A stretch of 27,852 nucleotides of DNA from a virus: IMG/VR virus record IMGVR_UViG_3300027759_000350, positions 1 to 27,852 of that record; one strand, 5' to 3'. The notes under the pieces were generated by a model, which saw only the letters and a list, made by a program, of their open reading frames with translations, was not told the DNA's origin and did not search any database. The position numbers and the translations under genes are program-made. Positions 6,635-23,184 of this stretch are shown here, one piece after another. The stretch's first letter is position 1. The number at the start of each line of letters is the position of its first letter.

Positions 6635-6642
6635 TATAAATT
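6635..6642 (+). promoter_or_regulatory. Late promoter variant TATAAATT, 5 nt before ATG
   Basis: TATAAATT in the 22-nt gap ends 5 nt before ATG 6648, predicting a leaderless transcript. No Shine-Dalgarno sequence fits in the gap. Confidence 0.6.
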
Positions 6643-6647
6643 ATATT

Positions 6648-7016
6648 ATGCAGCTTTTACATGAATTGACCAATAAAAACTTTCTGATATATGCCGCAAA
6701 ACACTATAATAATCCAGGGTGTTTGGACATAAAGGATTTTGAGTCAGACCTTGCTCACCTAAAATACATTAAAAAACTTCTTAAGAAGTATGGTGATAAA
6801 GGTGTCCTGCAAGAGAGATTAATTCTTAACCATATTATTATTTTTCATAATATGTTTTATCCAGAGGCAGCAACTCGTATGTGCTTCTATAAGGTTCATG
6901 AAGAGAATTGGCCTGCATTAAAAACCTTTCTCTTGTATTTAAACTACATCCCAAATGGCGATTATATAAATATACCTATTGATCTAAATATAGCAAGAAC
7001 ACTTCAAAAAATTTAA
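6648..7016 (+). CDS. Conserved T4-like phage protein (DUF7207-like)
   Basis: The 122-residue helical protein has the pattern NFLIYAAKHYNNP, then FESDLAHLKYIKKLLKKY, then LQERLILNHIIIFHNMF and EAATRMCFYKV. I recognise it as a small conserved family found in many T4-like phages near neck or tail genes (remembered as DUF7207). No catalytic residues are apparent and the function is unknown. The start is fixed by the late promoter immediately upstream. The next gene begins 4 nt after the stop. Confidence 0.75.
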   Translation: MQLLHELTNKNFLIYAAKHYNNPGCLDIKDFESDLAHLKYIKKLLKKYGDKGVLQERLILNHIIIFHNMFYPEAATRMCFYKVHEENWPALKTFLLYLNYIPNGDYINIPIDLNIARTLQKI

Positions 7017-7020
7017 TTAT

Positions 7021-7605
7021 ATGGGACTATTTACACGCGTTAGCGATACAATTTATGCATTCAGGTTTTTACGTCTATTGACGACTCCATGGGAAAAGAC
7101 TGGTGCATACAAGGCAGGTCTTATAGATGCAACAGGCAAACTACTTCGTAAGCCTGAGACAAGTGAAGAAAAAAGCAAATACAACATTTTTCATCGACTT
7201 GTCTTTAACGTTAAAAAATTACTAAATAAATTACCATTGGGAAAAACAACAATTGCATCATATTTTGCTGCATTTTATCTCATTAAAGAAAAAACTGGGT
7301 TGTCTGACAAACAGATTGCACATGCTATACAAGAAGCGACTGGATTTGATCCTCTTGAAATTGAATTGCATGAGTCGTCATGGTATATGGTTGAAGACAA
7401 CAAACTGCGCTGTGGCCGATACACATTGCTAAATGACATTGCAATGCCAGCAACTGGCGAAGTCTTTGCTCTTAAAAATTCGACAGTTATTGTTAAAGAA
7501 GACTCTGCCCCATGTGGAAATATTTTTGGTGTAAATGTATATTCTGCATTTCACACATCAACGCGCCAAAACATTTTAATAACTCAACACGATATTAACC
7601 AATGA
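7021..7605 (+). CDS. Conserved marine-phage protein of unknown function
   Basis: The 194-residue protein has a basic N-terminal half containing YAFRFLRLLTTPWEKTGAYK, IDATGKLLRKPETSEEKSKY and FHRLVFNVKKLLNKLP, typical of a conserved family in marine T4-like phages. The segment around TTIASYFAAFYLIKEKTG is moderately hydrophobic and could touch a membrane or pack as a core helix. The C-terminal part (about 120-194) looks like a small beta domain. It overlaps the next gene by 4 nt. A TATAAATA at 6965-6972 inside the preceding gene might serve as a promoter. No biochemical function can be assigned. Confidence 0.68.
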   Translation: MGLFTRVSDTIYAFRFLRLLTTPWEKTGAYKAGLIDATGKLLRKPETSEEKSKYNIFHRLVFNVKKLLNKLPLGKTTIASYFAAFYLIKEKTGLSDKQIAHAIQEATGFDPLEIELHESSWYMVEDNKLRCGRYTLLNDIAMPATGEVFALKNSTVIVKEDSAPCGNIFGVNVYSAFHTSTRQNILITQHDINQ

Positions 7606-7901
7606 AAACTGAAGACACCACAACAAGCAATGTAGCAATGCCGCCATCAAATTACCCGCGTTCTGGTGCAACATGGAAAATGTTTGATGTTCCTACACTC
7701 ATCTTTAGACGTTTTGAAACCGGTAGAAATAAGTTTGAACGTTGGAGTAAATATCTCGACATGTCAGATGGAGAACAGTCGTCACTCTATAACTATGCAA
7801 AGAAAAATAGCAAACACACAATTATATTGCGTGACTCTGCTAGTGGTGCACTACGCAGCATACGCCGCCGTGCAATGAATGAAAATCAGCCAAACGTATA
7901 A
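7602..7901 (+). CDS. Small conserved phage protein
   Basis: The 99-residue basic protein has core motifs FDVPTLIFRRFETGRNKFER and ILRDSASGALRSIRRRA, which I recognise as a small family accompanying the preceding gene in marine T4-like phages. The function is unknown. The arginine-rich C-terminus suggests contact with nucleic acid or an acidic partner. Translation is probably coupled to the upstream gene through the ATGA overlap at 7602. Confidence 0.65.
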   Translation: MKTEDTTTSNVAMPPSNYPRSGATWKMFDVPTLIFRRFETGRNKFERWSKYLDMSDGEQSSLYNYAKKNSKHTIILRDSASGALRSIRRRAMNENQPNV

Positions 7902-7921
7902 AATATATAAAAAAATAGTTT

Positions 7922-7950
7922 TACATTTGTCATTTTTAGTATTAAAATAT
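7922..7950 (+). promoter_or_regulatory. Sigma-70-like promoter for nrdB-nrdA
   Basis: TTTACA (7922-7927), a 17-nt spacer and TAAAAT (7945-7950) lie 18 nt before ATG 7969. The -35 matches the GTTTAC type used elsewhere in the window, and the leader would be about 12 nt. The site also argues that NrdB starts at 7969 rather than at the upstream ATG 7879. Confidence 0.55.
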
Positions 7951-7968
7951 ACACAGAAAGCATCATTC

Positions 7969-8961
7969 ATGAACAACACAAACACGCACAGCATATTCGA
8001 AGAACAAATTAGCCGCAAACCAAACTATTATCCATGGACTGATCAATTTATCCAGGCGATGCATGACGGTTTTTGGACCGACAAAGAGTTTAGTTTTAAA
8101 AGCGACGTTCACCACTTTAAGACAGTACTCACAGAACAAGAACGTAATATTATTATCCGCACTCTGAGTGCAATTGGACAAATTGAAGTTTCTGTTAAAA
8201 GTTTTTGGGCCAAACTTGGTGACAATCTTCCACATCCAGCACTTCAAGATCTTGGCTATGTAATGGCCAACACAGAGGTTATTCATAACAATGCATATGA
8301 GCGGTTGCTTACTGTGCTTGGACTTGAAGATGTATTTGAAGAAAACCTTAAACTTGATTGGATTCAAGGTCGTGTAAATTACCTCAAAAAATACACTCAT
8401 AAGTTTTATAAGGACAGCAAAAAACAGTATTTATACGCACTCATTCTCTTTACGCTTTTTGTTGAAAATGTTTCGCTGTTTAGCCAATTCTATATTATCA
8501 ACTGGTTTGCTACACATAAAAATGTTCTCAAGGACACAGACCAACAAGTAAAATATACACGCAATGAAGAAAACATTCATGCACTTGTTGGCATTCAAAT
8601 TATTAAAACCATTCGTCAAGAACACCCTGAACTCTTTGACGCCGACCTTGAAGATAAAATTGTAAGTCAATCAATGGAGGCATACAAAGCCGAGTCTAAA
8701 ATTGTTGATTGGATGATTAATGGCATTGACGAGCCTGGACTCAATGCAAACATTCTTAAGGAGTTTATCAAGTCTCGTATTAATGATAGCATGAAGCAAA
8801 TTGGTTTTAGACAACCATTTGAAATTGATGAGGCTCTTATCTCCGAAACTGTTTGGTTTGATGAGCAGCTACATGGCAATAACATGACAGACTTTTTTCA
8901 CTCGAGACCAACTGAATATTCTAAAAAGAATCAGAGTTTCGGTGAAGATGACCTGTTTTAA
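7969..8961 (+). CDS. nrdB: Ribonucleoside-diphosphate reductase, class I small (radical) subunit
   Basis: The 330-residue protein has the ferritin-like R2 core. Visible metal ligands include NTEVIHNNAY (Glu, His and, four residues on, the radical tyrosine), LFVENVSLF (Glu) and RNEENIHAL (Glu and His). The first ligand position, Asp in E. coli, appears to be Glu (GQIEVSVKSFW), while the tyrosine is kept. The C-terminal FGEDDLF is the expected kind of acidic/aromatic tail that docks on NrdA. It makes the radical that lets NrdA reduce ribonucleotides to deoxyribonucleotides for phage DNA synthesis. It lies upstream of nrdA, the reverse of the common order. The start at 7969 gives a normal short N-terminus before YYPWTDQF. 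Confidence 0.95.
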   Translation: MNNTNTHSIFEEQISRKPNYYPWTDQFIQAMHDGFWTDKEFSFKSDVHHFKTVLTEQERNIIIRTLSAIGQIEVSVKSFWAKLGDNLPHPALQDLGYVMANTEVIHNNAYERLLTVLGLEDVFEENLKLDWIQGRVNYLKKYTHKFYKDSKKQYLYALILFTLFVENVSLFSQFYIINWFATHKNVLKDTDQQVKYTRNEENIHALVGIQIIKTIRQEHPELFDADLEDKIVSQSMEAYKAESKIVDWMINGIDEPGLNANILKEFIKSRINDSMKQIGFRQPFEIDEALISETVWFDEQLHGNNMTDFFHSRPTEYSKKNQSFGEDDLF

Positions 8962-8966
8962 TTTTG

Positions 8967-8974
8967 TATAAATT
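8967..8974 (+). promoter_or_regulatory. Late promoter variant TATAAATT
   Basis: TATAAATT in the 22-nt gap between nrdB and nrdA ends 9 nt before ATG 8984, predicting a leader of about 4 nt. It would give nrdA its own late transcript. Confidence 0.5.
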
Positions 8975-8983
8975 ACTTTGATT

Positions 8984-10633
8984 ATGGATGATAAAATATA
9001 TTGGTTGAATAAGGACAGTCGAAAATTTCTCGAAAGAGGATATTTGATTGAAGGTGAGACTCCTGAGAGTCGTATGCGTGACATTGCTGATGGTGCTGAG
9101 AAGCTCTTAGGAATAACAGGTTTTGGCGATAAGTTTGAGCGCTATTTACATGCTGGTTACTATTCATTGAGTAGCCCAATTTGGAGTAACTTTGCTCGTG
9201 AACGTGGATTGCCTATTAGTTGTTTCGGATCATACATTCCTGACACGATGGAAGGCATTTTCGGAAAACTGAGTGAGGTTGCAATGATGACAAAAGCTGG
9301 TGGTGGTACAAGTGGTTATTTTGGAAACATTCGTCCGCGTGGCAGTGCTATTAGCAGCGGTGGAACAAGCACAGGCGCAGTCCATTTTATGGAACTCTAT
9401 GATAAGACCATGAATGTGGTGTCTCAGGGCAATGTTCGTCGTGGAAGTTTTGCTGCATATCTTCCAATTGATCATGGTGACATTGAAGAATTTCTCCAAA
9501 TTAAAGGTGAAGGCAACAGCATTCAGGACATGAGTATTGGTGTTTCTGTGTCTGATGAATGGATGCGTAGCATGATTGATGGTGACAAACACAAAAGAAA
9601 AATTTGGGGACTCGTCATTAAGAAGCGTTTTGAAAGTGGCTATCCATACCTGTTTTTCTCTGACAATGCAAACAAAGTTGCGCCTCAAGTCTACAAGGAC
9701 AAAGGGTTAACGATTAACAACAGCAACCTTTGCAATGAGATTATGTTGTCTAATGGACCTGATGAAAGCTTTGTCTGTAACCTTTCATCAATCAATCTTG
9801 AACGTTGGGATGAACTTAAAGACACTGATGCAATTGAAACACTCGTCTGTTTCCTTGATGCTGTTATGTCAGAGTTTATTAATAAGACTGAAGGCATGTC
9901 CTATATGGAAGCACCTCGACAGTTTGCGATGCGTCAACGTGCACTTGGCATTGGAGTACTTGGGTATCATACATATCTTCAAAGCAAAGGCATTCCATTT
10001 GAAGGCATGGCTGCTCATGGAGAAAATATAACAATCTTTAAAACAATACGTCAAAAGTGTGACGCTGCAAGTGCTGAACTTGCTGCAATGTTTGGTGAAC
10101 CACCACTCTTAACTGGTTATGGCCGCCGAAACACAACAACAATGGCAGTCGCTCCTACTACAAGCAGCAGCTTTATTCTCGGTCAGGTCAGTCCATCAAT
10201 TGAACCACTAAACAGTAATTACTTTGTTAAGGATCTCGCAAAAGGCAAATTTACATACAAAAATCCAGAACTTATTAAGCTGTTAAAATCAAAAGATCTT
10301 AACTCTGCGGAAGTATGGAAAGACATTCTTGTTCACGGTGGTAGTGTGCAACACATGGAACAACTAACCTCTGATGAAAAAGCAGTCTTTAAAACATTTG
10401 GTGAAATAAGCCAAAAAGAAATTGTAATTCAAGCAGCTCAGCGTCAAAAATATATTGACCAAGGTCAGTCGCTTAACCTTACAATATCTCCAAAGGCAAA
10501 ACCAAAAGAAGTTAACGAGCTTATGATTTTTGCTTGGGAAATGGGTGTAAAAGGATTGTACTATCAGCGCAGTGCAAACCCTTCACAAGAACTTGCACGA
10601 TCAATCTTAATTTGCTCAGGCTGCGAATCATAA
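8984..10633 (+). CDS. nrdA: Ribonucleoside-diphosphate reductase, class I-type large (catalytic) subunit, compact form
   Basis: The 549-residue protein carries all expected active-site features: Cys80 in GLPISCFGS, NLCNE (248-252, radical Cys250 and Glu252) and Cys265 in VCNLSSINL. The C-terminus is ICSGCES, the swinging dithiol that is re-reduced by thioredoxin or glutaredoxin, here spaced CxxC. It is much shorter than E. coli NrdA (about 760 residues). It lacks an N-terminal ATP-cone, so the usual dATP overall-activity switch is absent. The start is ATG 8984; a TTG at 8978 is possible but less likely. Its stop overlaps the next gene (TAATG). Confidence 0.95.
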   Translation: MDDKIYWLNKDSRKFLERGYLIEGETPESRMRDIADGAEKLLGITGFGDKFERYLHAGYYSLSSPIWSNFARERGLPISCFGSYIPDTMEGIFGKLSEVAMMTKAGGGTSGYFGNIRPRGSAISSGGTSTGAVHFMELYDKTMNVVSQGNVRRGSFAAYLPIDHGDIEEFLQIKGEGNSIQDMSIGVSVSDEWMRSMIDGDKHKRKIWGLVIKKRFESGYPYLFFSDNANKVAPQVYKDKGLTINNSNLCNEIMLSNGPDESFVCNLSSINLERWDELKDTDAIETLVCFLDAVMSEFINKTEGMSYMEAPRQFAMRQRALGIGVLGYHTYLQSKGIPFEGMAAHGENITIFKTIRQKCDAASAELAAMFGEPPLLTGYGRRNTTTMAVAPTTSSSFILGQVSPSIEPLNSNYFVKDLAKGKFTYKNPELIKLLKSKDLNSAEVWKDILVHGGSVQHMEQLTSDEKAVFKTFGEISQKEIVIQAAQRQKYIDQGQSLNLTISPKAKPKEVNELMIFAWEMGVKGLYYQRSANPSQELARSILICSGCES

Positions 10634-10821
10634 TGAATATGACTGAAGAAACTTTATTAGATAACCTTGATCCATTTTGGTATGCAATTGGCATGATGTT
10701 TTGTGTTCCATTAGTAATAATTATCTTGTTGATTGCATGCGTGATATTTGTATGCATATGGCCAATTATTCCAATAGTAGCATACTATCAGCGTAAAGAA
10801 GAATTACAAGATAACGATTAA
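10633..10821 (+). CDS. Small integral membrane protein
   Basis: The 62-residue protein starts on the A of the nrdA stop (TAATG), implying coupled translation. Residues 15-52 are almost entirely hydrophobic (FWYAIGMMFCVPLVIIILLI onward to PIVAYY), enough for one long or two short membrane helices, flanked by an acidic N-terminus and a charged C-terminal QRKEELQDND. No family is recognised. A holin or membrane-anchoring role is possible from topology alone, but nothing specific supports it. Confidence 0.6.
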   Translation: MNMTEETLLDNLDPFWYAIGMMFCVPLVIIILLIACVIFVCIWPIIPIVAYYQRKEELQDND

Positions 10822-10828
10822 ATAAATA
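10821..10828 (+). promoter_or_regulatory. Possible late promoter AATAAATA overlapping a stop codon
   Basis: AATAAATA begins on the last base of the preceding TAA stop and ends 4 nt before ATG 10833. It has the same arrangement as at 11029-11036. Confidence 0.45.
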
Positions 10829-10832
10829 GTGT

Positions 10833-11033
10833 ATGGTAGAAAATAATCGATGCCCCAAATGTAAATATGTCTATGAAGTGTCATGGGACGATGAAGACGA
10901 TAAGTATTATTGTGATGATACTGAAGACGACGAAGACGATGATTTAGAACATGAAGAACTGTATCCAGAATATTGCCCATTTTGTGGTACGCATCACCTC
11001 TATGGCACCGAAGGTGACTCTTATGATGAATAA
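10833..11033 (+). CDS. Small acidic zinc-ribbon protein
   Basis: The 66-residue protein has CPKC (7-10), Cys27, CPFC (48-51) and HH (54-55), a likely zinc ribbon. Between the knuckles lies an Asp/Glu-rich stretch (DDTEDDEDDDLEHEE). Small acidic phage zinc ribbons often contact host proteins or mimic DNA, but no partner can be inferred here. It lies between two candidate late promoters that overlap the flanking stop codons. Confidence 0.65.
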   Translation: MVENNRCPKCKYVYEVSWDDEDDKYYCDDTEDDEDDDLEHEELYPEYCPFCGTHHLYGTEGDSYDE

Positions 11034-11036
11034 ATA
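11029..11036 (+). promoter_or_regulatory. Possible late promoter AATAAATA, 5 nt before ATG
   Basis: The box includes the TAA stop of the zinc-ribbon gene (11031-11033) and ends 5 nt before ATG 11042. The predicted start of transcription is the A of that ATG. Confidence 0.5.
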
Positions 11037-11041
11037 ACTAC

Positions 11042-11473
11042 ATGAGCTGGTTATACAATGATGTTCCATTTACAAACGCTGAAGCAACTGAAAAAATAAC
11101 TGATGGATACATTGGATTTGTCTATGAAATTTTAGACACCCAAAACAATAAAAAATATATTGGTAAAAAGCTACTCGTCAGCAAGAAAAAACTGGCACCT
11201 CTCAAGGGCCAAAAGCGCAAGCGAATTAAAATTGTGCAGACTGATTGGGAGACCTACTATGGAAGTAGCGAGAGTGTAAAGCTACTTGTTGAGGAGAGAA
11301 AAGAAACATTTACTCGACGTATCCTGCATTTTTGTAAAAGCAAAGGAGAACTCTCATACACCGAAGCAAAGGAACAATTTGATCGAGAAGTGCTCTTGTC
11401 TGATGACTACTATAATGAATTTATTGGGATTAAAATACACTCAGCGCATATTAAAAATTTATGGAAAAAATAG
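11042..11473 (+). CDS. GIY-YIG-like endonuclease domain protein
   Basis: The 143-residue protein has GFVYEILD (25-32) followed by KKYIGKKLL (37-45), a GIY-YIG-type core, then a Lys/Arg-rich loop (GQKRKRIK). DWETYYGSS, FTRRILHFCKSKGELSYTEA and VLLSDDYYNEF match a phage family I recognise as GIY-YIG/Seg-like nucleases of T4-like phages. Unlike homing forms it lacks an obvious extra DNA-binding tail. It sits between core metabolism genes, so a repair or recombination nuclease is as likely as a mobile one. The early promoter for rnh begins on its stop codon. Confidence 0.75.
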   Translation: MSWLYNDVPFTNAEATEKITDGYIGFVYEILDTQNNKKYIGKKLLVSKKKLAPLKGQKRKRIKIVQTDWETYYGSSESVKLLVEERKETFTRRILHFCKSKGELSYTEAKEQFDREVLLSDDYYNEFIGIKIHSAHIKNLWKK

Positions 11474-11502: not shown

Positions 11503-11520
11503 AGACTCACAATACAAATT

Positions 11521-12390
11521 ATGATAATCGTTGACTATTCGGGAGTTGCAATTTCAGGAATATTTTCTCAATCTGCCCCAGGGAAAATTACTGAAGACTT
11601 TATGAGACACATTATTCTCAATTCACTGAGAATGTACAATCTCAAATATCGTGAAAAATATGGTCAGCTTATTTTAGCTGTTGACAGTGGTAGTTGGCGC
11701 AAAGGCTATTATCCAGAGTACAAGGCATCACGTAAGAAAAACCGAGACTCTTCAGCTCTAGATTGGACAGAAATTTTCTCTATTATCAATACTGTTCGTG
11801 ATGAAATTACTGAACACATGCCATATCCAGTTTTAGCTGCACCTCGTGCTGAGGCTGATGATGTTATTGCCACTCTTGTAGAGTCTACACAGGAGTTTGG
11901 CGCACATGAGCCTGTAATGATTATTAGTGCAGACAAAGACTTTATTCAACTGCAAAAATACGACAACGTGTCTCAATGGAGTCCAATGACTAAAAAGCTG
12001 TTGTCAAGTTCAAATCCTCATCGATACCTATGCGAACATGTCTTTAGGGGTGACTCCGGTGATGGTGTTCCAAATGTACTATCAGGTGATCGTGTCTTTA
12101 CTGAAGGTGGTCGTCAAACTCCATTAAGTGCAAAGAAAATTGATGCTTGGTACTCTGCCGCAAAGGCAGGAACACTCGAGTCTGCCATGCCTGCTGAAGC
12201 ATATAGAAACTATATTCGCAACTCCAAACTAATTGACTTGTCATGCATACCAGATGAAATTAAGGAATCAATCTTGACAGCCTATTCATCACTCCAGAAA
12301 AAGGGAAACAGCAAAGTCTTTAATTATCTAGTGTCTAAACGATGCAATCAATTAACTTCTTGTGCAGAAGAGTTTTTCACATATAAATAA
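11521..12390 (+). CDS. rnh: T4 Rnh-type 5'-3' exonuclease / RNase H (FEN-1 family)
   Basis: The 289-residue protein has the acidic metal-binding residues of the flap-nuclease family in order: Asp5 (MIIVDYSG), Asp55 (LAVDSGSWR), EADD (111-114), SADKD (136-140) and GDSGDGVPN (177-185). KGYYPEYKASRKKNR is the basic arch that grips the 5' end. In T4 this enzyme removes RNA primers and 5' flaps during lagging-strand synthesis. The C-terminal domain is helical. It is transcribed from its own early-type promoter. A TATAAATA box overlaps its last codons and stop, driving the next gene. Confidence 0.93.
   Translation: MIIVDYSGVAISGIFSQSAPGKITEDFMRHIILNSLRMYNLKYREKYGQLILAVDSGSWRKGYYPEYKASRKKNRDSSALDWTEIFSIINTVRDEITEHMPYPVLAAPRAEADDVIATLVESTQEFGAHEPVMIISADKDFIQLQKYDNVSQWSPMTKKLLSSSNPHRYLCEHVFRGDSGDGVPNVLSGDRVFTEGGRQTPLSAKKIDAWYSAAKAGTLESAMPAEAYRNYIRNSKLIDLSCIPDEIKESILTAYSSLQKKGNSKVFNYLVSKRCNQLTSCAEEFFTYK
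12382..12389 (+). promoter_or_regulatory. T4-type late promoter TATAAATA
   Basis: An exact box overlaps the last codons and stop of rnh and ends 12 nt before ATG 12402, predicting a leader of about 7 nt. Confidence 0.6.
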
Positions 12391-12401: not shown

Positions 12402-12848
12402 ATGAAAACAGCAAAAAATAATGTACATAAGTGTCCATTTGAAATTTTTGAAGCAGTTCAGGCCTGTAGCAACCAGGCTGATCGCATTAAAATTTTATTG
12501 GAAAATGAAAGCTATGAGTTAAAAACAATATTGCAAGGTTCATTTCGATCTGATATTGTTTTTGATCTTCCAGAAGGAGCTCCTCCATACAAGAAAAATA
12601 CATCACCTCCTGGGCTGTCATACAGTCCACTTAAAAAGCAAATTGATATAGTGCGAATGCTGCTGGTTGGAAACAACTCGTGGAATAAACTTAAAAAAGA
12701 AACATCATTTATTAAGTTTATTGAGCAGCTAAATGAGAAAGATGCAGAGATTATTATTGCAATGAAAGATAAAAAGTTGACTAAAAAATATTCAACAATA
12801 ACTGCATCACTCGTTAAAAAAGCATTTCCATCGTTAGGCATCGAATAA
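12402..12848 (+). CDS. Conserved T4-like phage protein (DUF6433-like)
   Basis: The 148-residue protein has the pattern PFEIFEAVQACSNQADRIK, LKTILQGSFRSDIVFDLPEG, PPYKKN and LNEKDAEIIIAMKDKKLTKK followed by VKKAFPSL. I recognise it as a conserved family in T4-like phages (remembered as DUF6433), usually near replication or late-transcription genes. The fold is mostly helical with a central PPY turn and no catalytic motif. The function is unknown. Its neighbours suggest a role in replication or late transcription. Confidence 0.8.
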   Translation: MKTAKNNVHKCPFEIFEAVQACSNQADRIKILLENESYELKTILQGSFRSDIVFDLPEGAPPYKKNTSPPGLSYSPLKKQIDIVRMLLVGNNSWNKLKKETSFIKFIEQLNEKDAEIIIAMKDKKLTKKYSTITASLVKKAFPSLGIE

Positions 12849-13275: not shown

Positions 13276-13977
13276 ATGGTGTCACCCCGAAAACAGTTTA
13301 AGCATTCTAGTGTTTCATTGGGTTATTCTAACCTTGAAGACAGCACTACAAGTTCGGGTCGAGTGTATGTTACACCAGACGGCAAAAAGTATCCAAGTAT
13401 TACAACAGTACTTGGAGTGCGCGGCAAAGAGGCGCTCTATGAATGGAGACGACGTGTTGGAGAAGAGGAAGCAAATCGAATAGCTCGGCATGCAGCCACA
13501 CGCGGGTCTGCCCTACACAGCATTGCAGAACGTTATCTCAATAATGAAGAGACATATTTTGCCGAAGGTGAAATGCCACATGTAAAGGGCATGTTTAATA
13601 CAATTCGTCCGCTATTAGACAAGCATATAGATGAGATTGTAATGCAAGAGTGTCCACTCTATTCAGACTATCTTGGAATAGCTGGCCGAGTTGACCTTGT
13701 TGGACGATTTGACGGTCGTATAAGTATAATTGATTTTAAAACTAGTTCAAGAGTAAAGACTCGAGAAGAAATTAGCAACTATTTCGTACAGACGGCGGCA
13801 TACGCAATTATGTTTGAGGAGCGAACGCAGATTCCTGTCTCACAACTCGTAATTGTTATGGCAGTTGAAAATTCTTCAACTCCACTCTTGTTTATTGAAA
13901 AACGAGACTCTTGGACAGATGAACTACTCTCGGTTATAAAGGAATACAACACAAAAAAATTATTTGGACATGGATAA
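13276..13977 (+). CDS. RecB/Cas4-like PD-(D/E)XK exonuclease
   Basis: The 233-residue protein has the ordered signature of RecB-family nucleases: His81 (GSALHSIAE), Glu125 (MQECPLYS), Asp140 (GRVDLVGRFDG), Asp153 with Lys155 (IIDFKTS), and YFVQTAAYAIMFEE (Gln-x3-Tyr). These residues coordinate the metals that cut DNA. The N-terminus has YVTPDGKKYPSITTVLG, typical of the phage version. It lacks the cysteine cluster of Cas4, so an iron-sulfur centre is unlikely. A role in phage recombination or host DNA processing is inferred from the family. The start is ATG 13276; TTG 13261 is less likely. Confidence 0.88.
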   Translation: MVSPRKQFKHSSVSLGYSNLEDSTTSSGRVYVTPDGKKYPSITTVLGVRGKEALYEWRRRVGEEEANRIARHAATRGSALHSIAERYLNNEETYFAEGEMPHVKGMFNTIRPLLDKHIDEIVMQECPLYSDYLGIAGRVDLVGRFDGRISIIDFKTSSRVKTREEISNYFVQTAAYAIMFEERTQIPVSQLVIVMAVENSSTPLLFIEKRDSWTDELLSVIKEYNTKKLFGHG

Positions 13978-14584
13978 CACACTAAAAGACAATAAAGGGC
14001 TTCTCGATCAAATACTTAACGGAGGAATAAGCGACTCGTTTACTACGGAATATGGTTCAATTAAGGAGTATTATCTCTCCGATGAAATTGGTGATGCGTC
14101 TGACTATATTGGCTGGTTCCATGAAATACGAAACTGTCGGTCAACAGATTTAATTAAATTACACATCAATTGTCCAGGTGGCAACCTGTTTACCACAATT
14201 CAATTTATGCAGGCACTCTCTGAGACTGAGGCTCATATTATTGTGAGTGTTGAAGGAGCATGCATGAGTGCTGCTACTCTAATTTTCCTTATGGCTGATG
14301 AGTATATGATTACAAATCACAGCATGTTTCTCTTTCATAACTACAGCGCTGGAACAGCTGGTAAAGGTGGAGAGATGTATCACGGCATGGTGCATGAACG
14401 TGCCTGGAGTGCAAAACTATTTAAAGATCTCTATAGTGACTTTCTCACAGAGCCTGAAATTAAGGACATGCTTGAAGACAAAGACATTTGGATGGACGCT
14501 GCAGAAGTGCTAAACAGACTTGAAAAACGTGGTAAAAAGATACAAAAACGAATTCAAGCAGAACAAAAATCTAAAAGGGAATAA
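13970..14584 (+). CDS. ClpP-like serine protease
   Basis: The 204-residue protein shows the ClpP fold signatures: INCPGGNLFTTIQFMQAL, the nucleophile Ser100 in VEGACMSAATLI, His123 in MFLFHNYSAGTAGKG, and Asp172 in KDIWMDAAEV. All three catalytic residues are present. Phage ClpP-like proteins are common in marine T4-like phages. They may form a barrel used with host ClpX/ClpA or act alone; the substrate is unknown. The start overlaps the upstream gene by 8 nt. The C-terminus is a charged tail (RGKKIQKRIQAEQKSKRE). No ClpX-like ATPase is in this window. Confidence 0.9.
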   Translation: MDNTLKDNKGLLDQILNGGISDSFTTEYGSIKEYYLSDEIGDASDYIGWFHEIRNCRSTDLIKLHINCPGGNLFTTIQFMQALSETEAHIIVSVEGACMSAATLIFLMADEYMITNHSMFLFHNYSAGTAGKGGEMYHGMVHERAWSAKLFKDLYSDFLTEPEIKDMLEDKDIWMDAAEVLNRLEKRGKKIQKRIQAEQKSKRE

Positions 14585-14593
14585 TTTTGTTCT

Positions 14594-14689
14594 ATGACCG
14601 GTATACGTCCGGAAACTTTTTTCACTTTTATGTAAAAAGTTGTGTACTTTGAGTCCGTTTTATGCTATAATAACCATGTAAGCAACAAT
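14594..14689 (+). promoter_or_regulatory. Early promoter cassette, copy A
   Basis: In order: a GC-rich dyad (CCGG-TATACGT-CCGG), the AT-rich inverted repeat ACTTTTTTCACTTTTATG-TAAAAAGT, -35 GTGTAC (14642-14647), 18-nt spacer, -10 TATAAT (14666-14671) and the leader AACCATGTAAGCAACAAT before ATG 14690. The same order and nearly the same bases recur at 20934 and 25678. The start would fall near the ATGTAA in the leader. Confidence 0.85.
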
Positions 14690-15040
14690 ATGACAAACCA
14701 AACTAAACGAACGGTATTTACGGTAGCCAATGACGCCTCAGGAAATGAGACTATTAAGCAATTGAGAAAAGAAGTCAAAGCACACAATCTCGTCGAGCGC
14801 TCAAAGGAAGTTCTCGACCCAACCTATATTGCAACTTTCAAACGTGTTGATCTCTATGGTCGACTTGGAAAAAATAATCCAAACAACAGCAAATACAAAA
14901 AGGGCGGTCCACGTTCAAGTATTTTCGGAGCTACACCTCGAGTTTTGTTAGCCGACGCCGTCAAAATTGCAGTCTATGTAAACTATACACAACGATTTCA
15001 ATGGGGAAGTTGGAAAGGATTTAAAGTTGTGTATCAATAA
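14690..15040 (+). CDS. Early protein of unknown function
   Basis: The 116-residue basic protein is placed by the strong early promoter cassette immediately upstream; an in-frame TTG at 14642 lies within the promoter and is rejected. It contains TFKRVDLYGRLGKNNPNN, then KYKKGGPRSSIFGATPRVLL and KIAVYVNYTQRFQWGSWKGF. No family is recognised. Strong early expression and basic charge would suit a host-takeover or nucleic-acid-binding protein, but this is inference. No good ribosome-binding site is present. Confidence 0.7.
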   Translation: MTNQTKRTVFTVANDASGNETIKQLRKEVKAHNLVERSKEVLDPTYIATFKRVDLYGRLGKNNPNNSKYKKGGPRSSIFGATPRVLLADAVKIAVYVNYTQRFQWGSWKGFKVVYQ

Positions 15041-15129: not shown

Positions 15130-15206
15130 GGCCATGTAGCCGAATTGGTATAGGCAACGAACTTAAAATTCGTAATTTGTCGGTTCGAGTCCGACCATGG
15201 CTACCA
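15130..15206 (+). tRNA. tRNA with anticodon UAA (predicted tRNA-Leu), short variable loop, encoded CCA
   Basis: A full cloverleaf of 77 nt folds: acceptor GGCCATG with CATGGCT (first pair G-U), TA at 8-9, D stem GCC/GGC with GG in the loop, anticodon stem ACGAA/TTCGT around CTTAAAA (anticodon TAA), 5-nt variable loop, T stem GTCGG/CCGAC around TTCGAGT, discriminator A and encoded CCA. UAA reads UUA leucine codons, common in this AT-rich genome. Bacterial tRNA-Leu normally has a long variable arm, so the class I form is unusual. Confidence 0.92.
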
Positions 15207-15230: not shown

Positions 15231-15238
15231 TATAAATA
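15231..15238 (+). promoter_or_regulatory. T4-type late promoter TATAAATA
   Basis: An exact box 25 nt after the tRNA ends 9 nt before ATG 15248, predicting a leader of about 4 nt. It heads the three-gene paralogue cluster. Confidence 0.7.
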
Positions 15239-15247: not shown

Positions 15248-15766
15248 ATGAAACCATTTCACTATAACCAAGATCCACTGTATGCAGTAGCTGCATCAAT
15301 TCTCGCAGGCCAAACCGTTACTGAAGACGTCACTCTTGAAGAAGGAGTAGAAGATATTGCAGCTAATGTTGCCAATTTTAAAAAAGGTGACAAAACCAAC
15401 TTTGGTGTAGTCACCGATGTTTCTTCCACCAGTATCACTTTTAAAGCAAAGGACCTACCAGTCACAAAGATTGCTTTCAACCAACGCAAGATGGGCAGCA
15501 AAGATTTTGTACTTGACAAACTAATTAAGCTTAAGGAAAGCGAAGGCATAAAAGAAGGTGAAGAAGATTTTTATTCACAAAAGATGATTAAAAATCAATT
15601 AAACACAATTGTTCGTAATGCAAATGTATGTCTTCAAATGATTGAGGCTGGTCGCAAATTTCCTGAATGGGCACAGAGTGAAATTGCAGTATCTGAGGCT
15701 GGCATTGTAAGTGTCACTGAGTTTATGGAATCACACTCAGATGGTGTTAAACTAGGTGAAGCATAA
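15248..15766 (+). CDS. Late protein with N-terminal FHYNQD motif and beta-barrel-like domain (paralogue 1)
   Basis: The 172-residue protein starts MKPFHYNQDPLYAVAASILA, shared with the next gene. Then comes an acidic linker with TLEEGVED, then a domain (about 40-98: FKKGDKTNFGVV, ITFKAKDLPVTKIAFN, RKMGSKDFVLDKLIKLKE) shared with the third gene. The C-terminal half is helical. LEE and IKE sites resemble prohead-protease cut points. I recognise the middle domain from predicted virion proteins of marine phages; its function is unknown. It is driven by the late promoter just upstream. Confidence 0.7.
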   Translation: MKPFHYNQDPLYAVAASILAGQTVTEDVTLEEGVEDIAANVANFKKGDKTNFGVVTDVSSTSITFKAKDLPVTKIAFNQRKMGSKDFVLDKLIKLKESEGIKEGEEDFYSQKMIKNQLNTIVRNANVCLQMIEAGRKFPEWAQSEIAVSEAGIVSVTEFMESHSDGVKLGEA

Positions 15767-16752: not shown

Positions 16753-16820
16753 GCGTATATATAATTTATGACTACATCACGTTGGTGTAGTACACTACAA
16801 ACACAAACACACAAAAACAA

Positions 16821-17087
16821 ATGAATAAAAACGCATATGAAATCCGTCTGGAAGTATTAAGCCTCGCACATGCTGACATTAGTCAGCTCTACTATGAAAA
16901 GTTGAATGTTCTTAGAGAACAAGATCAACGCACTATGGAAGACTATTATAAAAAAATGGATGTTGACCGCATGACTCCTCTTCCAAAAATGAGCTTTAAT
17001 GCCGAAGCAATTGAAGCATTAGTTCCATCAACAGAAGCTATTAAAAAACGTGCTGTAGAACTCTACACCTTTGTTGAAGGAGTATAA
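16821..17087 (+). CDS. Small conserved phage protein (NAYEIRLxVL family)
   Basis: The 88-residue helical protein starts MNKNAYEIRLEVLSLAHADI, a pattern I recognise from small proteins of T4-like phages. The middle is rich in charged helix (LREQDQRTMEDYYKKMDVDR) and the C-terminus is helical. A TATAAT at 16760-16765 just after the terminator could be its -10, though no good -35 is in place. The leader is A/C-rich (CACACAAAAACAA) without Shine-Dalgarno. Function unknown. Confidence 0.68.
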   Translation: MNKNAYEIRLEVLSLAHADISQLYYEKLNVLREQDQRTMEDYYKKMDVDRMTPLPKMSFNAEAIEALVPSTEAIKKRAVELYTFVEGV

Positions 17088-17143: not shown

Positions 17144-17944
17144 TTACAATCTGTGGCGTACAACTGGCACATTATAGAGCCAATTGACAGAGTCACTAAA
17201 GCCTGATCCCCAGTGGTGCACACTAAATTGATACACTGCTCGCGCACGGGACAATATAAAGAAATCTACTAGAGTGTCTAGCACATTGCCATCCTCTAAT
17301 GTCAAATGAGCTGGAATTGATGGTGTAGATTTTATTCCCCATCTTTCTGCTATTATTTGTTTTATTTCAAACGAATCAGACATTACTAAACATGGAATAT
17401 TACTCTGTGCCTTTATCTTTTCTATTACTGATAAATTTTTAATAATATCATTTAGCGTGTGTGGCACGACATCGCCGACTTGGGTTTTAAATGATAAAAT
17501 ATCACCAGCCCGGATGTGTATAACTCTATAGTCTTTTAAACCTTCTAGCGCACTCTGAATTGCCATTTCGCATTCGTGTGTCGGTTGTAAATAGTTTCGT
17601 ATAGAGCATGAAACTCTCCGAGGTATTTTAAAAATTGGCCAAACATTTGTGTATATGCCAAGATCATATTTTCTTAAATTTCGTAGTGGTCCTAGTTCTT
17701 CTAAAGAACTTTTTAGTATACGACTCGTCATATTTCCAATGTCTTGAAAGTTCACAATATCCTCAAGCGGAATAGGCGGGGTTGTATTAGTAGAGTTTAA
17801 ATATTTTCCCATTGGATGATGTCTAAAATCCATTTCAAATGGAATTGAATATTCATCGCACAGTTGCTTGCACGCAATCGACCCACGGATAAAGTCTCCT
17901 AAACCCATTCCCCTTTCCTTTACAAAATAGCTTTGCATTAACAT
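17144..17944 (-). CDS. Fucosyltransferase-like glycosyltransferase
   Basis: The only convincing - strand gene. From ATG at 17944 it encodes 266 residues. Early GMGLGDFIRGS suits a nucleotide-sugar or substrate loop. VIHIRAGDIL (141-150) matches the HxRxGD signature of fucosyltransferase-type GT-B enzymes (GT11/GT23 relatives). CLVMSDSFEIKQII and the C-terminal FSVHHWGSGFSDSVNWLY resemble the donor-binding end of the same superfamily. It would transfer a sugar, possibly fucose from GDP-fucose, to a surface glycan, phage structure or small molecule. Another ATG at 17938 is possible. A longer frame back to 18076 overlaps the divergent gene and is rejected. It is transcribed from the palindromic late promoter at 17953-17964. 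Confidence 0.72.
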   Translation of the reverse strand: MLMQSYFVKERGMGLGDFIRGSIACKQLCDEYSIPFEMDFRHHPMGKYLNSTNTTPPIPLEDIVNFQDIGNMTSRILKSSLEELGPLRNLRKYDLGIYTNVWPIFKIPRRVSCSIRNYLQPTHECEMAIQSALEGLKDYRVIHIRAGDILSFKTQVGDVVPHTLNDIIKNLSVIEKIKAQSNIPCLVMSDSFEIKQIIAERWGIKSTPSIPAHLTLEDGNVLDTLVDFFILSRARAVYQFSVHHWGSGFSDSVNWLYNVPVVRHRL

Positions 17945-17952: not shown

Positions 17953-17964
17953 TATTTATAAATA
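17953..17964. promoter_or_regulatory. Palindromic bidirectional late promoter TATTTATAAATA
   Basis: The 12-mer is a perfect palindrome, so each strand carries an exact TATAAATA. The + box ends 6 nt before ATG 17971. The - box ends 8 nt before the ATG at 17944. Predicted leaders are about 1 and 3 nt, so one 12-bp element could drive two divergent, essentially leaderless messages. Confidence 0.7.
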
Positions 17965-17970: not shown

Positions 17971-18624
17971 ATGAAAGTAACAAATCAAAATATTGCCATA
18001 TTAGAAGATGACACTCATATTTCACACTGGGTTGAAGAGTCTGGTCGATTAGATCATGATAGATATGCATTGCCAATTATTTTACAACATATAAAACCCG
18101 GAGACACTGTTGTTGATGCGGGTGCATTTATTGGAGACCACACAGTTGCATATTGTAATGCTGTTGGGGAGTCTGGACATGTCCATGCATTTGAGCCAAA
18201 CAAAAGGGCATATGAATGTTTAGAGCACAACTGCAAGTCTGCAAAAACATACAATTTAGGCTTATCAAATATTGCTGAAACAGTCTACTATTCTGAAGAT
18301 AGGAATGCCGGGGCTGGACGAATTTTGCATGATGTTACGACATCAACACAAATAAAAACCATTACGTTAGACTCATTGCAACTTAGTGCCCTAGATTTTC
18401 TAAAAATAGATGTTGAAGGTTATGAGGTTGCTGTTCTTGAGGGTGCAGCTCTAACAATAAAAAAATATCGTCCAAAAATGTGGATTGAAATTAATGTTGG
18501 TGCACTCGGTCAGCAGGGCAAAACTGCAGCTGACATTGAATCATTTTTGTCAAAACTAGACTATACATACACTGCCTTTCCAGAGATTGGTGAACAATAC
18601 GATTTACTTTGCATACCAGCATGA
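17971..18624 (+). CDS. FkbM-family methyltransferase
   Basis: The 217-residue SAM-dependent methyltransferase has motif I VVDAGAFIGDHT (47-58), HAFEPNKRAYECLEHN with the acidic ribose-binding residue, NLGLSN, and the FkbM-type FLKIDVEGYEVAVLEGA. FkbM enzymes usually O-methylate sugars or other hydroxyls, matching its glycosyltransferase neighbours. It overlaps the next gene by 4 nt (ATGA), giving a three-gene operon from the bidirectional late promoter. The N-terminus (ILEDDTHISHWVEESGRLDH) is also typical of the family. Confidence 0.9.
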   Translation: MKVTNQNIAILEDDTHISHWVEESGRLDHDRYALPIILQHIKPGDTVVDAGAFIGDHTVAYCNAVGESGHVHAFEPNKRAYECLEHNCKSAKTYNLGLSNIAETVYYSEDRNAGAGRILHDVTTSTQIKTITLDSLQLSALDFLKIDVEGYEVAVLEGAALTIKKYRPKMWIEINVGALGQQGKTAADIESFLSKLDYTYTAFPEIGEQYDLLCIPA

Positions 18625-19307: not shown

Positions 19308-19309
19308 CT

Positions 19310-19981: not shown

Positions 19982-20000
19982 CGGCAAAATAGTGTATAAT
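19971..20000 (+). promoter_or_regulatory. Early-type promoter for UV endonuclease, leaderless geometry
   Basis: GTGTAC (19971-19976), 18-nt spacer, TATAAT (19995-20000). Only 5 nt (ACACC) separate the -10 from ATG 20006, so transcription would begin at or next to the start codon. Confidence 0.75.
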
Positions 20001-20005
20001 ACACC

Positions 20006-20923
20006 ATGACACCACGCCTCGGCCTTGTTTGTATCAGCGAAAAACTCACGCACCAAAAATTCACTGCAAAGACGATGACTCGAAAGCAGTTTGTTACACT
20101 CGGTCGAGAGGCCGGTCTCAAAGTCTTGTCTGAGCGAATCTTGCATAACTCAACGCATATACTTCGCACACTTCAGGCCTGTTATGCCTCTGGTGCTCGT
20201 CACTATCGCGTCAGCAGTTCAATGTTTCCGCTCATTACTGACTGCACCCTAGAGTTATCCTATAGAGACATACATAATTTTGATGTTGTACAGCAAAACT
20301 TACGAGCAGCTGGTGATTGGGCCCGTGCACATGACATTACACTAAGCTCTCATCCTGATCAATTTAATGTCCTATCAAGCTATCGGGATGATGTTGTACT
20401 CAAGACTGTCCGGGAACTTAATCATCAGAGTGAAGTGCTTGACATGATGGGTTGCACACAAGACTACAACTCTCCAATGTGTCTACATCTCAACAAGACA
20501 CCAGACTTTAAGCGTGAATCTGTTGAGGAGTACGTTAGTCGTTTCCTAACAAACTTGGCACTTTGCAACTCTGGTGTGCAGGCTCGCCTTGTGCTTGAAA
20601 ACGAGGACAAGGCATATTGGAACTGCGAGAACTTGCACACGCATTTTTCACGACACATTCCGCTTGTCTATGATAATCTGCATGATGTTTGTAACCCGTC
20701 AAGTGACAGTCACACAAATGCTGCACTATTTAAGGACACATGGGGAAGCTTCACACCAGTTTTTCATTGGAGTGAGGGCATTGGCAGCACCCGCAGTCAT
20801 ATTGACTATGCAACACATCTCCCCAGTGTGGTAGATTCTAACCGAAATGTGACCTGGGAGGTCGAATTAAAGGCAAAAGACAATGCAATTTGTCACATTT
20901 TGGACACTTTTTTCGGCCGGTAG
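20006..20923 (+). CDS. uvsE: UV DNA damage endonuclease (UvdE/UvsE family)
   Basis: The 305-residue TIM-barrel protein begins RLGLVCISEKL, the first barrel strand, supporting the start. HYRVSSSMFPLITD, LSSHPDQFNVLSS, CLHLNKTPDFKRE, LVLENEDKAYW, PLVYDNLHDVCNP and FHWSEGIGSTRSH are the metal-ligand and active-site segments of the family. The enzyme nicks DNA 5' of pyrimidine dimers and starts an alternative excision pathway. In a marine phage it would protect the genome or infected cell from sunlight damage. Codon use is slightly richer in G and C than its neighbours, compatible with separate acquisition. Confidence 0.93.
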   Translation: MTPRLGLVCISEKLTHQKFTAKTMTRKQFVTLGREAGLKVLSERILHNSTHILRTLQACYASGARHYRVSSSMFPLITDCTLELSYRDIHNFDVVQQNLRAAGDWARAHDITLSSHPDQFNVLSSYRDDVVLKTVRELNHQSEVLDMMGCTQDYNSPMCLHLNKTPDFKRESVEEYVSRFLTNLALCNSGVQARLVLENEDKAYWNCENLHTHFSRHIPLVYDNLHDVCNPSSDSHTNAALFKDTWGSFTPVFHWSEGIGSTRSHIDYATHLPSVVDSNRNVTWEVELKAKDNAICHILDTFFGR

Positions 20924-20933
20924 AAACTTTTTT

Positions 20934-21033
20934 TCTATACCCTGTATACAATAGACCACTTTTTTCACTTTTTATGAAAAAAGATGTGTACTTTTGCTGA
21001 GTTTCTTGCTATAATAACCATGTAAGCAACAAT
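20934..21033 (+). promoter_or_regulatory. Early promoter cassette, copy B
   Basis: The dyad ATACC-CT-GTAT, the inverted repeat TTTTTTCACTTTTTATGAAA, -35 GTGTAC (20986-20991), 18-nt spacer, -10 TATAAT (21010-21015) and leader AACCATGTAAGCAACAAT are in the same register as copy A. The leader is identical to copy A up to ATG 21034. Confidence 0.85.
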
Positions 21034-21237
21034 ATGAAAAACGAAACCAACACCGCCCTTGAAGCCCGTAAGTCCCTCATTGCAAAAATCGCTCAGCGAC
21101 ATGCATCAGAACGCAAACTCGTATCTTCTCTCGAAGTAAAGAAAAGCACTGATGTTGAAAGCGAGTATACCTCTATGGTTCGTGATGAATTTGAAAAAGT
21201 TCTGAAAGCTTCTACCTTTAATCCTATTAGCCTCTAA
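21034..21237 (+). CDS. Small early protein of unknown function
   Basis: The 67-residue, mainly helical charged protein contains ARKSLIAKIAQRHASERKLV and YTSMVRDEFEKVLKAS. No family is recognised and no membrane segment or cysteine is present. It is first behind a strong early promoter cassette, so it is probably expressed soon after infection. Two more small genes follow at 19-nt and 32-nt gaps and may share the transcript. Confidence 0.65.
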   Translation: MKNETNTALEARKSLIAKIAQRHASERKLVSSLEVKKSTDVESEYTSMVRDEFEKVLKASTFNPISL

Positions 21238-21256
21238 TTTTAAGCATCACAACATT

Positions 21257-21475
21257 ATGAAACGACTACCAGTTAAAAGCCATACTCTATCTAAAAAAAT
21301 TCGTTCAACAAACCCTTGGGGTTTAGGCGAGGAACTTGGCAAACAAATTGATTGTTATTGGGATTCTTTTAAAGCTGAATGGCCCAAAGAAAACCATACA
21401 TGGCTTGTAAATTTTTCCATGAAAAATAGACTAAATTCCAGTTTTGTTTTTAAAACTATTTGTAATCATCTTTAA
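21257..21475 (+). CDS. Small basic protein of unknown function
   Basis: The 72-residue protein has a basic N-terminus (MKRLPVKSHTLSKKIRST) and aromatic-rich centre (QIDCYWDSFKAEWPKENHTW). The leader has the recurrent CACAACATT form before ATG, with no Shine-Dalgarno. No family is recognised. It lies in the transcript begun at the copy B promoter and is likely early. Confidence 0.58.
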   Translation: MKRLPVKSHTLSKKIRSTNPWGLGEELGKQIDCYWDSFKAEWPKENHTWLVNFSMKNRLNSSFVFKTICNHL

Positions 21476-21507
21476 TTTTTTCGACAATAATACTACTTAA
21501 ACACACC

Positions 21508-21969
21508 ATGAAACTACAAACTCCTGCGCTACAATCCTTCACACTCAAGAGCAAACATGCTCGCACATACAGTGATGGAGGTCGTTATATTGACAATGGC
21601 TTTAATGTCTATGCTGATTCAAACTTGTCTTCGGCAATTGATGAATTTTTCAATGCAAACAAAATCTGTAGTCTGTCTTTTAAGTGTCGCACTTGGACAA
21701 AACTAAAGAATTTTGTAAGCAAGGTTGAGGCGGCTTCGCTAAAAGAAAGCTTTTCTCTTGAGGACTCGGCTGCCGTCAAATATTCCCATAAGACTGGTTG
21801 TTCATGTGGATGTTCTCCGGGCTTTCAAGTGCGTAAGACTCGCAAGTCTCTCAACGAGTTTCGTAATCATAGTGTCTATGTAAAGTTGGACTATGACTTG
21901 TCCCCTATCAAGGCTGTTCTCCCTGCCTTTGAGAGCATGCTTAAGGCTGAAATTGAGGCTCATGCATAA
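21508..21969 (+). CDS. Unknown protein with CSCGCSPGF cysteine cluster
   Basis: The 153-residue basic protein has the central HKTGCSCGCSPGFQVRKTRK. The three close cysteines, with Cys53/Cys59-type residues earlier (ICSLSFKCRTW), could bind zinc or an iron-sulfur cluster. The Cys-cluster motif with following basic residues recurs in phage hypothetical proteins, but I know no function. The remainder is mixed alpha/beta (VYVKLDYDLSPIKAVLPAFE). It probably continues the early transcript from 21016. Confidence 0.62.
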   Translation: MKLQTPALQSFTLKSKHARTYSDGGRYIDNGFNVYADSNLSSAIDEFFNANKICSLSFKCRTWTKLKNFVSKVEAASLKESFSLEDSAAVKYSHKTGCSCGCSPGFQVRKTRKSLNEFRNHSVYVKLDYDLSPIKAVLPAFESMLKAEIEAHA

Positions 21970-21980
21970 ATAATGTTTTA

Positions 21981-21988
21981 GATAAATA
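21981..21988 (+). promoter_or_regulatory. Late promoter variant GATAAATA, 5 nt before ATG
   Basis: GATAAATA ends 5 nt before ATG 21994, with the leaderless geometry seen at 119, 6635, 22150 and 22431. A second box, CATAAATA (21965-21972), overlaps the upstream stop. Confidence 0.55.
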
Positions 21989-21993
21989 TAGTT

Positions 21994-22173
21994 ATGAATT
22001 ATTTTGAAAATGATGTGACGACAACAGATACCTATGTGTATCGTGGGCAGCTGTGCAAACTCTCTATACAAGAGGCATATGCAAAAAATTATGCATTGGC
22101 ATTAAACAAAAGTCAAGATCGCTATGTTAAAGTAGTCACTAAGACTAAGTATAAATGTAGTAATGATGAATGA
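21994..22173 (+). CDS. Small protein of unknown function
   Basis: The 59-residue frame starts MNYFENDVTTTDTYVYRGQL and ends KTKYKCSNDE. It is supported by the late-promoter box exactly 5 nt before its ATG and by an 11-nt overlap with the next gene. It contains a helix (LSIQEAYAKNYALALNKS). No family is recognised. It is short, so confidence rests on context. Confidence 0.5.
   Translation: MNYFENDVTTTDTYVYRGQLCKLSIQEAYAKNYALALNKSQDRYVKVVTKTKYKCSNDE
22150..22157 (+). promoter_or_regulatory. Late promoter variant TATAAATG, 5 nt before ATG
   Basis: TATAAATG lies within the end of the small upstream gene and ends 5 nt before ATG 22163. Confidence 0.5.
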
Positions 22174-22423
22174 TTCAGACATTTTTGATTTTGGGTTTAC
22201 TGCTGTTGCAGAAGATGAACTAGACTCTGCAAAAGTAGTAAGTGCTAAAGAGGATGAATTGGTTGCAGCTCAAGCACAACTTGACTCGCTCTATAAATCA
22301 GTACTTCCTCTCATAGCAAACTTAAAGAAAAATCCAGAAAAAGACTATATCTACTGGCCAAACCGCCTTGATAAGGTAAAAGAGTTTGAGCGACTGCTAT
22401 TAAAAATTTATGAGGGAAAATAG
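22163..22423 (+). CDS. Small conserved phage protein (DFGFTAVxEDEL family)
   Basis: The 86-residue acidic protein has DIFDFGFTAVAEDELDSAKV, a coiled-coil-like stretch (KEDELVAAQAQLDSLYK) and NLKKNPEKDYIYWPNRLDKV, a combination I recognise from marine T4-like phages. Function is unknown; the KDYIYWPNR box is the most conserved-looking part. A second ATG at 22166 follows the first. The promoter box and the next gene's box 8 nt after the stop suggest it can be expressed as a single-gene late transcript. Confidence 0.7.
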   Translation: MMNDSDIFDFGFTAVAEDELDSAKVVSAKEDELVAAQAQLDSLYKSVLPLIANLKKNPEKDYIYWPNRLDKVKEFERLLLKIYEGK

Positions 22424-22430
22424 CTTTTCT

Positions 22431-22438
22431 TATAAATA
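22431..22438 (+). promoter_or_regulatory. T4-type late promoter TATAAATA, 5 nt before ATG
   Basis: An exact box in the 20-nt gap ends 5 nt before ATG 22444, predicting a leaderless endolysin message. Confidence 0.72.
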
Positions 22439-22443
22439 ATAAT

Positions 22444-23184
22444 ATGTCATTCGCTAATGTTGGAAAAGTATGGACAGTCGATTCCTTTAGAGAATATCTA
22501 AAGGGAATTAAACGACCGGTGTATGCAAAGTCTATTACGCTACATCATACTGGAGCGCCATCTTTAGGTCAACGCCCACAAGGCTTTCTCATTCAACACA
22601 TTCATAACATCCAAAGCTTCTATAAGTCATTAGGATGGAATAGAGGTCCTCATCTCTTTATTGATGAAGATCAAATCTTTGGTATGACACCATTGACTGT
22701 GTCTGGCATACACGCAGTTTCATTTAATAAGAGTTCAATTGGTATTGAAATACTTGGTGAGTATGATACTGAAGACCCGCTTAGTGGTCGCGGTTTGGCA
22801 TGCATGAAAACCACAGCAGCAGTTGTAAAAGTACTTGGTGAATGGTTAGACATTCCTATAAACGAAAATACACTAAAGTTTCATCGTGATGATCCTAAAA
22901 CAAGCAAAACCTGTCCTGGTAATAAGGTTAAAAAGGATTGGTTTTTGTCTCTAGTTGGCAACACACAGCAGTCTCAACCAGCAGTGCCACAGGCGCGAGA
23001 AGAGGTTGGAATAATTGACTATGCTGTTAAAAAAGGAATTTCCCAGACCGACGCTATCAAGCGTCTAAAGGTTCGTGGAGGATTGACATTTTTCAATGAT
23101 GTTTGGATTGAATCAGCACGGTATGACCAAACATCACAGACAACACTTGCGCTTAAATCAGAACTTGACACTGATATACGCTAA
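22444..23184 (+). CDS. Endolysin, N-acetylmuramoyl-L-alanine amidase (Amidase_2/T7-lysozyme type)
   Basis: The 246-residue protein has an N-terminal amidase_2 domain with zinc-ligand candidates HHTG (34-37), His147 (FHRDDP) and Cys157 (TCPGN); Lys155 in TSKTC is the catalytic lysine position of T7 lysozyme. It cuts the bond between N-acetylmuramic acid and L-alanine in peptidoglycan. No signal peptide is present, so it would depend on a holin or similar for export. A Gln/Pro-rich linker (TQQSQPAVPQAREE) leads to a C-terminal region of about 60 residues that may bind cell wall. It has its own late promoter, matching a lysis role. Confidence 0.92.
   Translation: MSFANVGKVWTVDSFREYLKGIKRPVYAKSITLHHTGAPSLGQRPQGFLIQHIHNIQSFYKSLGWNRGPHLFIDEDQIFGMTPLTVSGIHAVSFNKSSIGIEILGEYDTEDPLSGRGLACMKTTAAVVKVLGEWLDIPINENTLKFHRDDPKTSKTCPGNKVKKDWFLSLVGNTQQSQPAVPQAREEVGIIDYAVKKGISQTDAIKRLKVRGGLTFFNDVWIESARYDQTSQTTLALKSELDTDIR

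Follow-up and report, generated by a model that had tools for sequence, protein, structure and literature searches.

T4-type late promoter boxes set against start codons predict leaderless or near-leaderless late mRNAs in a lineage of uncultured phages

Genes and promoter boxes of the window

The DNA analysed here, called the window, is a record complete at 27,852 bases and represents a piece of an uncultured virus genome. Few T4 core late genes lie inside it. No deposited phage matches the window at the DNA level; relatives of its proteins are encoded on uncultured viral contigs, and nine relative records of up to 174 kb were covered in large part. For gp23, the best cultured phage among the matches listed is Pelagibacter phage HTVC008M (58%). 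In G001, the largest close relative, there are homologues of gp55, gp33, gp45 and gp23, so that the group owns the T4 late transcription set; gp55, gp33 and gp45 occur all together in G001, G009, G010 and G011, and the window fragment is without them. Gene starts on the uncultured contigs, which are related to one another, are simple home-made calls from one gene caller used for all records, and the gap is the number of nucleotides between the end of a box and the nearest in-frame ATG.

The fourteen boxes named in the original prediction were re-read from the sequence, and every position and gap is as it had been given. They are TATAAATA, the octamer of T4 late promoters, or variants of it, and lie on the plus strand except where noted. 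A gap of exactly 5 nt separates the late boxes at 119–126 (TATAAATA), 6635–6642 (TATAAATT), 11029–11036 (AATAAATA), 21981–21988 (GATAAATA), 22150–22157 (TATAAATG) and 22431–22438 (TATAAATA) from the ATGs at 132, 6648, 11042, 21994, 22163 and 22444, the last belonging to the amidase gene. Several of these arrangements recur in relatives: TATAAATA at gap 5 precedes the homologue of gene 132 at L098 and those of gene 22163 at L078 and L063, and the amidase homologue at L161 has AATAAATA at gap 6. For gene 6648, both box and gap are exact in the orthologues at six other loci (L004, L089, L091, L106, L107 and L164), despite diverged flanks.

The other boxes lie at 4 to 12 nt. The late box at 779–786 (TATAAATA) is 8 nt from the ATG at 795, and both orthologues found are also boxed; TATAAATA at 15231–15238 stands 9 nt from the ATG at 15248. 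The late box at 12382–12389 (TATAAATA) precedes the ATG at 12402 by 12 nt, for a predicted leader of 7 nt, and at least six orthologues keep a gap of 11–12. Gene 10833 has its box (AATAAATA, 10821–10828) at gap 4, and the box position differs among orthologues. A weak box at 4236–4243 (AATAAATA) lies within the upstream gene, 12 nt before the ATG at 4256; the orthologues are without it. Within 8967–8986, a late-type box (8967–8974, TATAAATT) lies 9 nt before the nrdA ATG at 8984; some orthologues carry TATAAATT or TATAAATC at gaps 5–6. To our knowledge, nrdA is not a late gene in T4. At 17953–17964 a near-palindrome holds two divergent, overlapping late boxes, both TATAAATA: one on the minus strand (17953–17960; gap 8) for the minus-strand gene whose ATG is at 17944, the other on the plus strand (17957–17964; gap 6) for the ATG at 17971, with gap 6 likewise at L169.

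An early-type −10 element, TATAAT, lies at 19995–20000 on the plus strand, 5 nt before the uvdE ATG at 20006, and five orthologues have TATAAT at gaps 5–7. The uvdE promoter would thus have the same leaderless placement as the late boxes but be of the sigma70 type.

The window holds further features of its own. Behind the first late box, a short ORF (132–268) is followed in another frame by a second (208–783); the two look like a split endonuclease-like gene, and a Pfam search with ORF 208–783 gave no match. A tRNA-Leu gene (anticodon TAA, 15130–15206) measures only 77 nt and has a short variable loop, unlike the usual bacterial tRNA-Leu. A ClpP-like protease gene (Pfam CLP_protease) occupies 13964–14584. 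The proteins starting at 795, 1448, 4256, 6311, 15248 and 16045 share similar short N-terminal peptides, for example MKTLNQILNES, MKSFKTYVEEK and MIRFKDYISEE, which, by analogy with those of the T4 internal proteins, may be capsid-targeting tags.

Spacing between box and start codon

Box-like words and ATGs are numerous in an A+T-rich genome, and their juxtaposition could be accidental. The words alone exceed expectation only mildly (72 occurrences of TATAAATA with at most one mismatch in the window, against 53 in shuffled sequence), so the remarkable part is the spacing to the ATG and not the number of boxes. The pattern ATAAATA-N5-ATG (ATAAATANNNNNATG) occurs four times in the window, against a mean of 0.09 in shuffles, none of 100 of which reaches four.

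A histogram of box positions across the window and six close relatives bears out the predicted excess at gap 5; for comparison, T4 and Syn9 were covered in part. Counts at gaps 0–4 are 0, 1, 1, 0 and 4; they rise abruptly to 36 at gap 5, followed by 28, 15, 3 and 12 at gaps 6–9, a sum of 94. There is a minor peak of 12 at gap 12, and about 2 per position beyond. Twenty permutations of the motif, identical to it in composition, give about 2 per position and about 10 over gaps 5–9. Permuted motifs were used because ATAAATAN had proved unsuitable as a control, its core being common with the box; one permuted motif, TAAATAA, is also elevated, as it overlaps the box within TATAAATAA.

In whole records (24, with T4 and Syn9 complete), ATAAATA-N{5,9}-ATG was compared with its reversed pattern. 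The counts are 44 against 7 in G001, 42 against 7 in G009 and 16 against 2 in HTVC008M. No clear excess is seen in T4 (5/6), KVP40 (6/3), S-PM2 (4/6), P-SSM2 (7/9), P-SSM4 (3/5), Syn9 (5/3) or C48C1 (1/2); RB49 has 5 against 1, and phiM7, Cr30, BUCT608 and OLIVR6 have one each. Together with the conservation of gaps in orthologues, these controls refute chance for the group, for which it is now a very remote explanation; single weak boxes, such as that of gene 4256, may still be accidental.

The boxes tend to accompany late genes. When HTVC008M proteins of the T4-like late and early sets were used to find orthologues in six relatives lacking Shine-Dalgarno (SD) sites, a box lay within 26 nt upstream of 18 of 41 late starts and of none of 36 early ones (p = 1.3e-6). 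For gp2 and gp25, the box is at 4–7 nt in most of the six relatives. A minority of boxes lie 10–26 nt upstream, for example those of gp19, gp8, gp21 and gp26 in G001, and many late genes in the six relatives have no recognised box. The late operons are for this reason not all leaderless: the original prediction that most late messages lack a leader agrees with the excess at gap 5, but the longer gaps of the minority leave leaders in place.

Predicted transcription start and SD-free translation

The octamer of T4 late promoters occupies positions −13 to −6 relative to the transcription start (PMC1524935). Applied to a box that ends 5 nt before an ATG, this rule makes the A of that codon the predicted +1; the arithmetic of the original prediction is correct in this respect. 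The +1 position in the clade is transferred from T4, and the abrupt edge at gap 5 would be the limit below which the start codon is no longer transcribed whole. For the gap-4 case, gene 10833, the T4-rule start would cut into the ATG.

The base at −1 provides a second mark of this position. Of the genes inside operons, 24% have a purine there, but none of the 46 late gap-5 sites does (p = 3e-6), nor any of the 24 early gap-6 sites (p = 0.001); at late gaps 6 and 7 it comes back, to 23% and 12%. The pyrimidine present at all 46 gap-5 sites agrees with transcription predicted to start at the first base of the ATG. A T at −1 was rejected as start-site evidence in itself, 64% of all starts having one; because T is so common everywhere, the informative sign is only that purines are missing altogether at late gap 5 and early gap 6. 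At gap-6 sites T usually occupies the position that would be +1 in T4, so the start site there must move by one base.

It could be argued that these are late promoters whose transcripts start elsewhere, for example 10 nt or more past the box, so that some messages begin inside the ORF and a later codon is used. Room for this is left by the borrowed +1 and by a gp55 that shares only about 36% identity with the T4 protein. In the relatives, however, homology runs up to the first codon, with no offset in most cases; the starts of HTVC008M were annotated independently, in GenBank, by others; and the position that the T4 rule gives is marked both by the abrupt onset of the gap distribution at 5 nt and by the missing purines at −1. 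This alternative is accordingly judged quite unlikely.

SD-like words were counted 4–20 nt upstream of starts and compared with shuffled upstream sequence. They precede 0% of the window starts and 4–10% of those in the close relatives and G009, which is about the shuffled level, whereas the SD users stand well above it (T4, 62% against 23%; HTVC008M, 54% against 23%; Syn9, 39% against 19%). Within the clade no start class shows SD words above shuffles, and operon-internal genes are as poor in them as promoter-proximal ones. The loss of SD sites is consequently not specific to late genes. In the close clade the early element TATAAT is most frequent 6 nt before the ATG, where 27 sites lie, while most other gaps have only a handful; T4, Syn9 and HTVC008M have no such peak. 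The late messages do lack SD sites as first proposed, but this is a property of the whole phage, whose early TATAAT elements are placed alike.

Two further observations concern the regions upstream of genes. Boxless leaders at 16790–16823, 23205–23238 and 26180–26211 are CA-rich with almost no G, and that of gene 16821 is conserved in five relatives; such leaders are possibly a signal for SD-free translation. Early promoters of the window (14650–14692, 21000–21036 and 26600–26635) and of G001–G006 have a −35 element like TTTACA or GTGTAC and an extended −10, TGnTATAAT; about 4–5 nt past the −10 follows a conserved TGTAAGC, TGTAAGG or TGTAACC, a motif that may give early transcripts a constant 5′ end of the GUAA type.

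These data also bear on the idea that the A/T-rich element near the ATG is a translation signal, for example an unfolded stretch or one recognised by ribosomal protein S1, with transcripts starting further upstream. The upstream regions of all clade genes are A-rich and SD-free, and A at −3 and T at −1 are favoured even within operons, as such a signal would have it. Against this, permuted heptamers of the same composition have no peak; the element, already known as the late box of T4, precedes late but not early orthologues; and TATAAT, an element of another kind, has its peak one base farther from the ATG, as promoter geometry predicts. We regard a translation signal as an unlikely source of the pattern.

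The reading that we favour, and hold to be probable, is that gp55-type late promoters are fused to start codons and yield mRNAs with no leader or almost none, in a host whose translation dispenses with SD sites. T4-kind late boxes would be read by a gp55-type sigma factor together with gp33 and gp45, and their placement would make transcription start on the A of the start codon or a few bases away. The late mRNAs would then open with AUG or with a leader too short for an SD site, and their initiation would take an SD-independent route. Since sigma70-type early promoters are placed likewise at some genes and operon-internal genes are SD-less too, the whole phage would be built for a host with no need of SD pairing. 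Leaderless late mRNAs seem a well-founded reading on sequence grounds. If it is true, the virion proteins of this related group are translated via a different initiation route than those of T4, and the late sigma factor alone sets which codon starts translation. The group would let translation without SD sites be studied in aquatic bacteria as an experiment made by nature, and its boxes would give gene finders a start-codon signal for such phages.

Hosts and comparison with known systems

Across 32 dereplicated phages (31 on the exonuclease tree, and T4), 165 of 430 boxes lie at gaps 5–9 in phages without SD sites, against 5 of 144 in SD users other than HTVC008M; the rank correlation is −0.49 (phages with at least four boxes, kinship not corrected for). 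This suggests that the box-to-ATG arrangement follows host translation, with HTVC008M as the informative exception.

Clues to the host were sought in several directions. Bacteroidota are an SD-poor host group; the Bacteroidota-type promoter TANNTTTG shows no enrichment upstream of genes, whereas TATAAT is enriched. Actinobacterial hosts are rich in leaderless mRNAs, and a WhiB-like gene is a frequent though not universal marker of actinophages; none of 19 records searched has one, and, the marker not being universal, the host may still belong to this group. Phage-encoded bS21, IF3 and WhiB, looked for as an explanation or host marker, are absent from the clade. Relatives of gp23 in genome bins (named Muricauda, Flavobacteriales, Chloroflexi, Acidimicrobiaceae and Gammaproteobacteria) were rejected as a host clue, as they are mostly SD carriers with few short gaps.

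Pelagibacter phage HTVC008M resembles the clade in having boxes 5 nt before starts and predicted mRNAs without an internal SD site. Its nine gap-5 boxes all stand exactly 5 nt from a start annotated in GenBank; the genes concerned are those at 6280, 7562, 16007 (minus strand), 18916 (minus strand), 19456, 31132, 49760, 75559 and 142360, and gp2, gp48 and gp25 are among them. SD words accompany 2 of 12 boxed genes, against 57% of other genes (p = 0.013), and in the two gap-5 genes that have an SD-like word (the tape measure gene and gp10), the word lies at the box or before it and is not part of the predicted mRNA. Unlike the clade, HTVC008M uses SD sites for its remaining genes; some of its late genes have a box and an SD leader (gp8 and gp21, with the box 18–19 nt upstream and the SD site between box and start); its early promoters are not at the ATG; and it encodes bS21, which the clade does not. 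An SD-free host is thus not required, since HTVC008M combines the arrangement with SD use at its other genes. The arrangement, proposed at the outset to be unusual for a T4-like phage, is unusual among those described but not unique. HTVC008M is cultured, and the arrangement is directly testable in culture. A survey of pelagimyophages was unsuccessful in predicting their middle and late promoters (PMC7029224); in one pelagimyophage, late promoters can now be located beside the start codon. A wider proposal is slightly more likely than not: that an entire T4-like lineage has the fusion of promoter and start codon as a main mode of expression, with both gp55 late and host-type early promoters placing +1 on the AUG in an SD-free genome, and that in HTVC008M the position of the promoter alone would divide the late mRNAs into two translational classes, one with leaders and one without.

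Late transcription in T4 is a textbook case, and leaders there contain SD sites. T4 and the clade share the octamer before late genes and gp55, gp33 and gp45 (in the clade as homologues in the relatives). In T4, however, a leader of at least 14 nt with an SD site typically comes after the box, whereas in the clade the ATG is mostly 5–7 nt off and no SD site is present. The late promoters of marine cyanomyoviruses, NATAAATA, have a variable first box base (PMC2984593). The cyanomyoviruses S-PM2, Syn9 and P-SSM2 are like the clade in this variable base and in their T4-like gene set; they differ from it in having no excess of boxes at gaps 5–9 and in the use of SD sites (Syn9). A search of the literature found no paper on leaderless late mRNAs of T4-like phages. 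Leaderless mRNAs as such are known from Deinococcus and from lambda cI, and a published study places them in mycobacteria (PMC4633059). The clade resembles these bacterial messages in having no SD site and a promoter element whose short distance to the start is fixed; it differs in mainly using the box of a phage sigma factor, over part of a T4-like late gene set.
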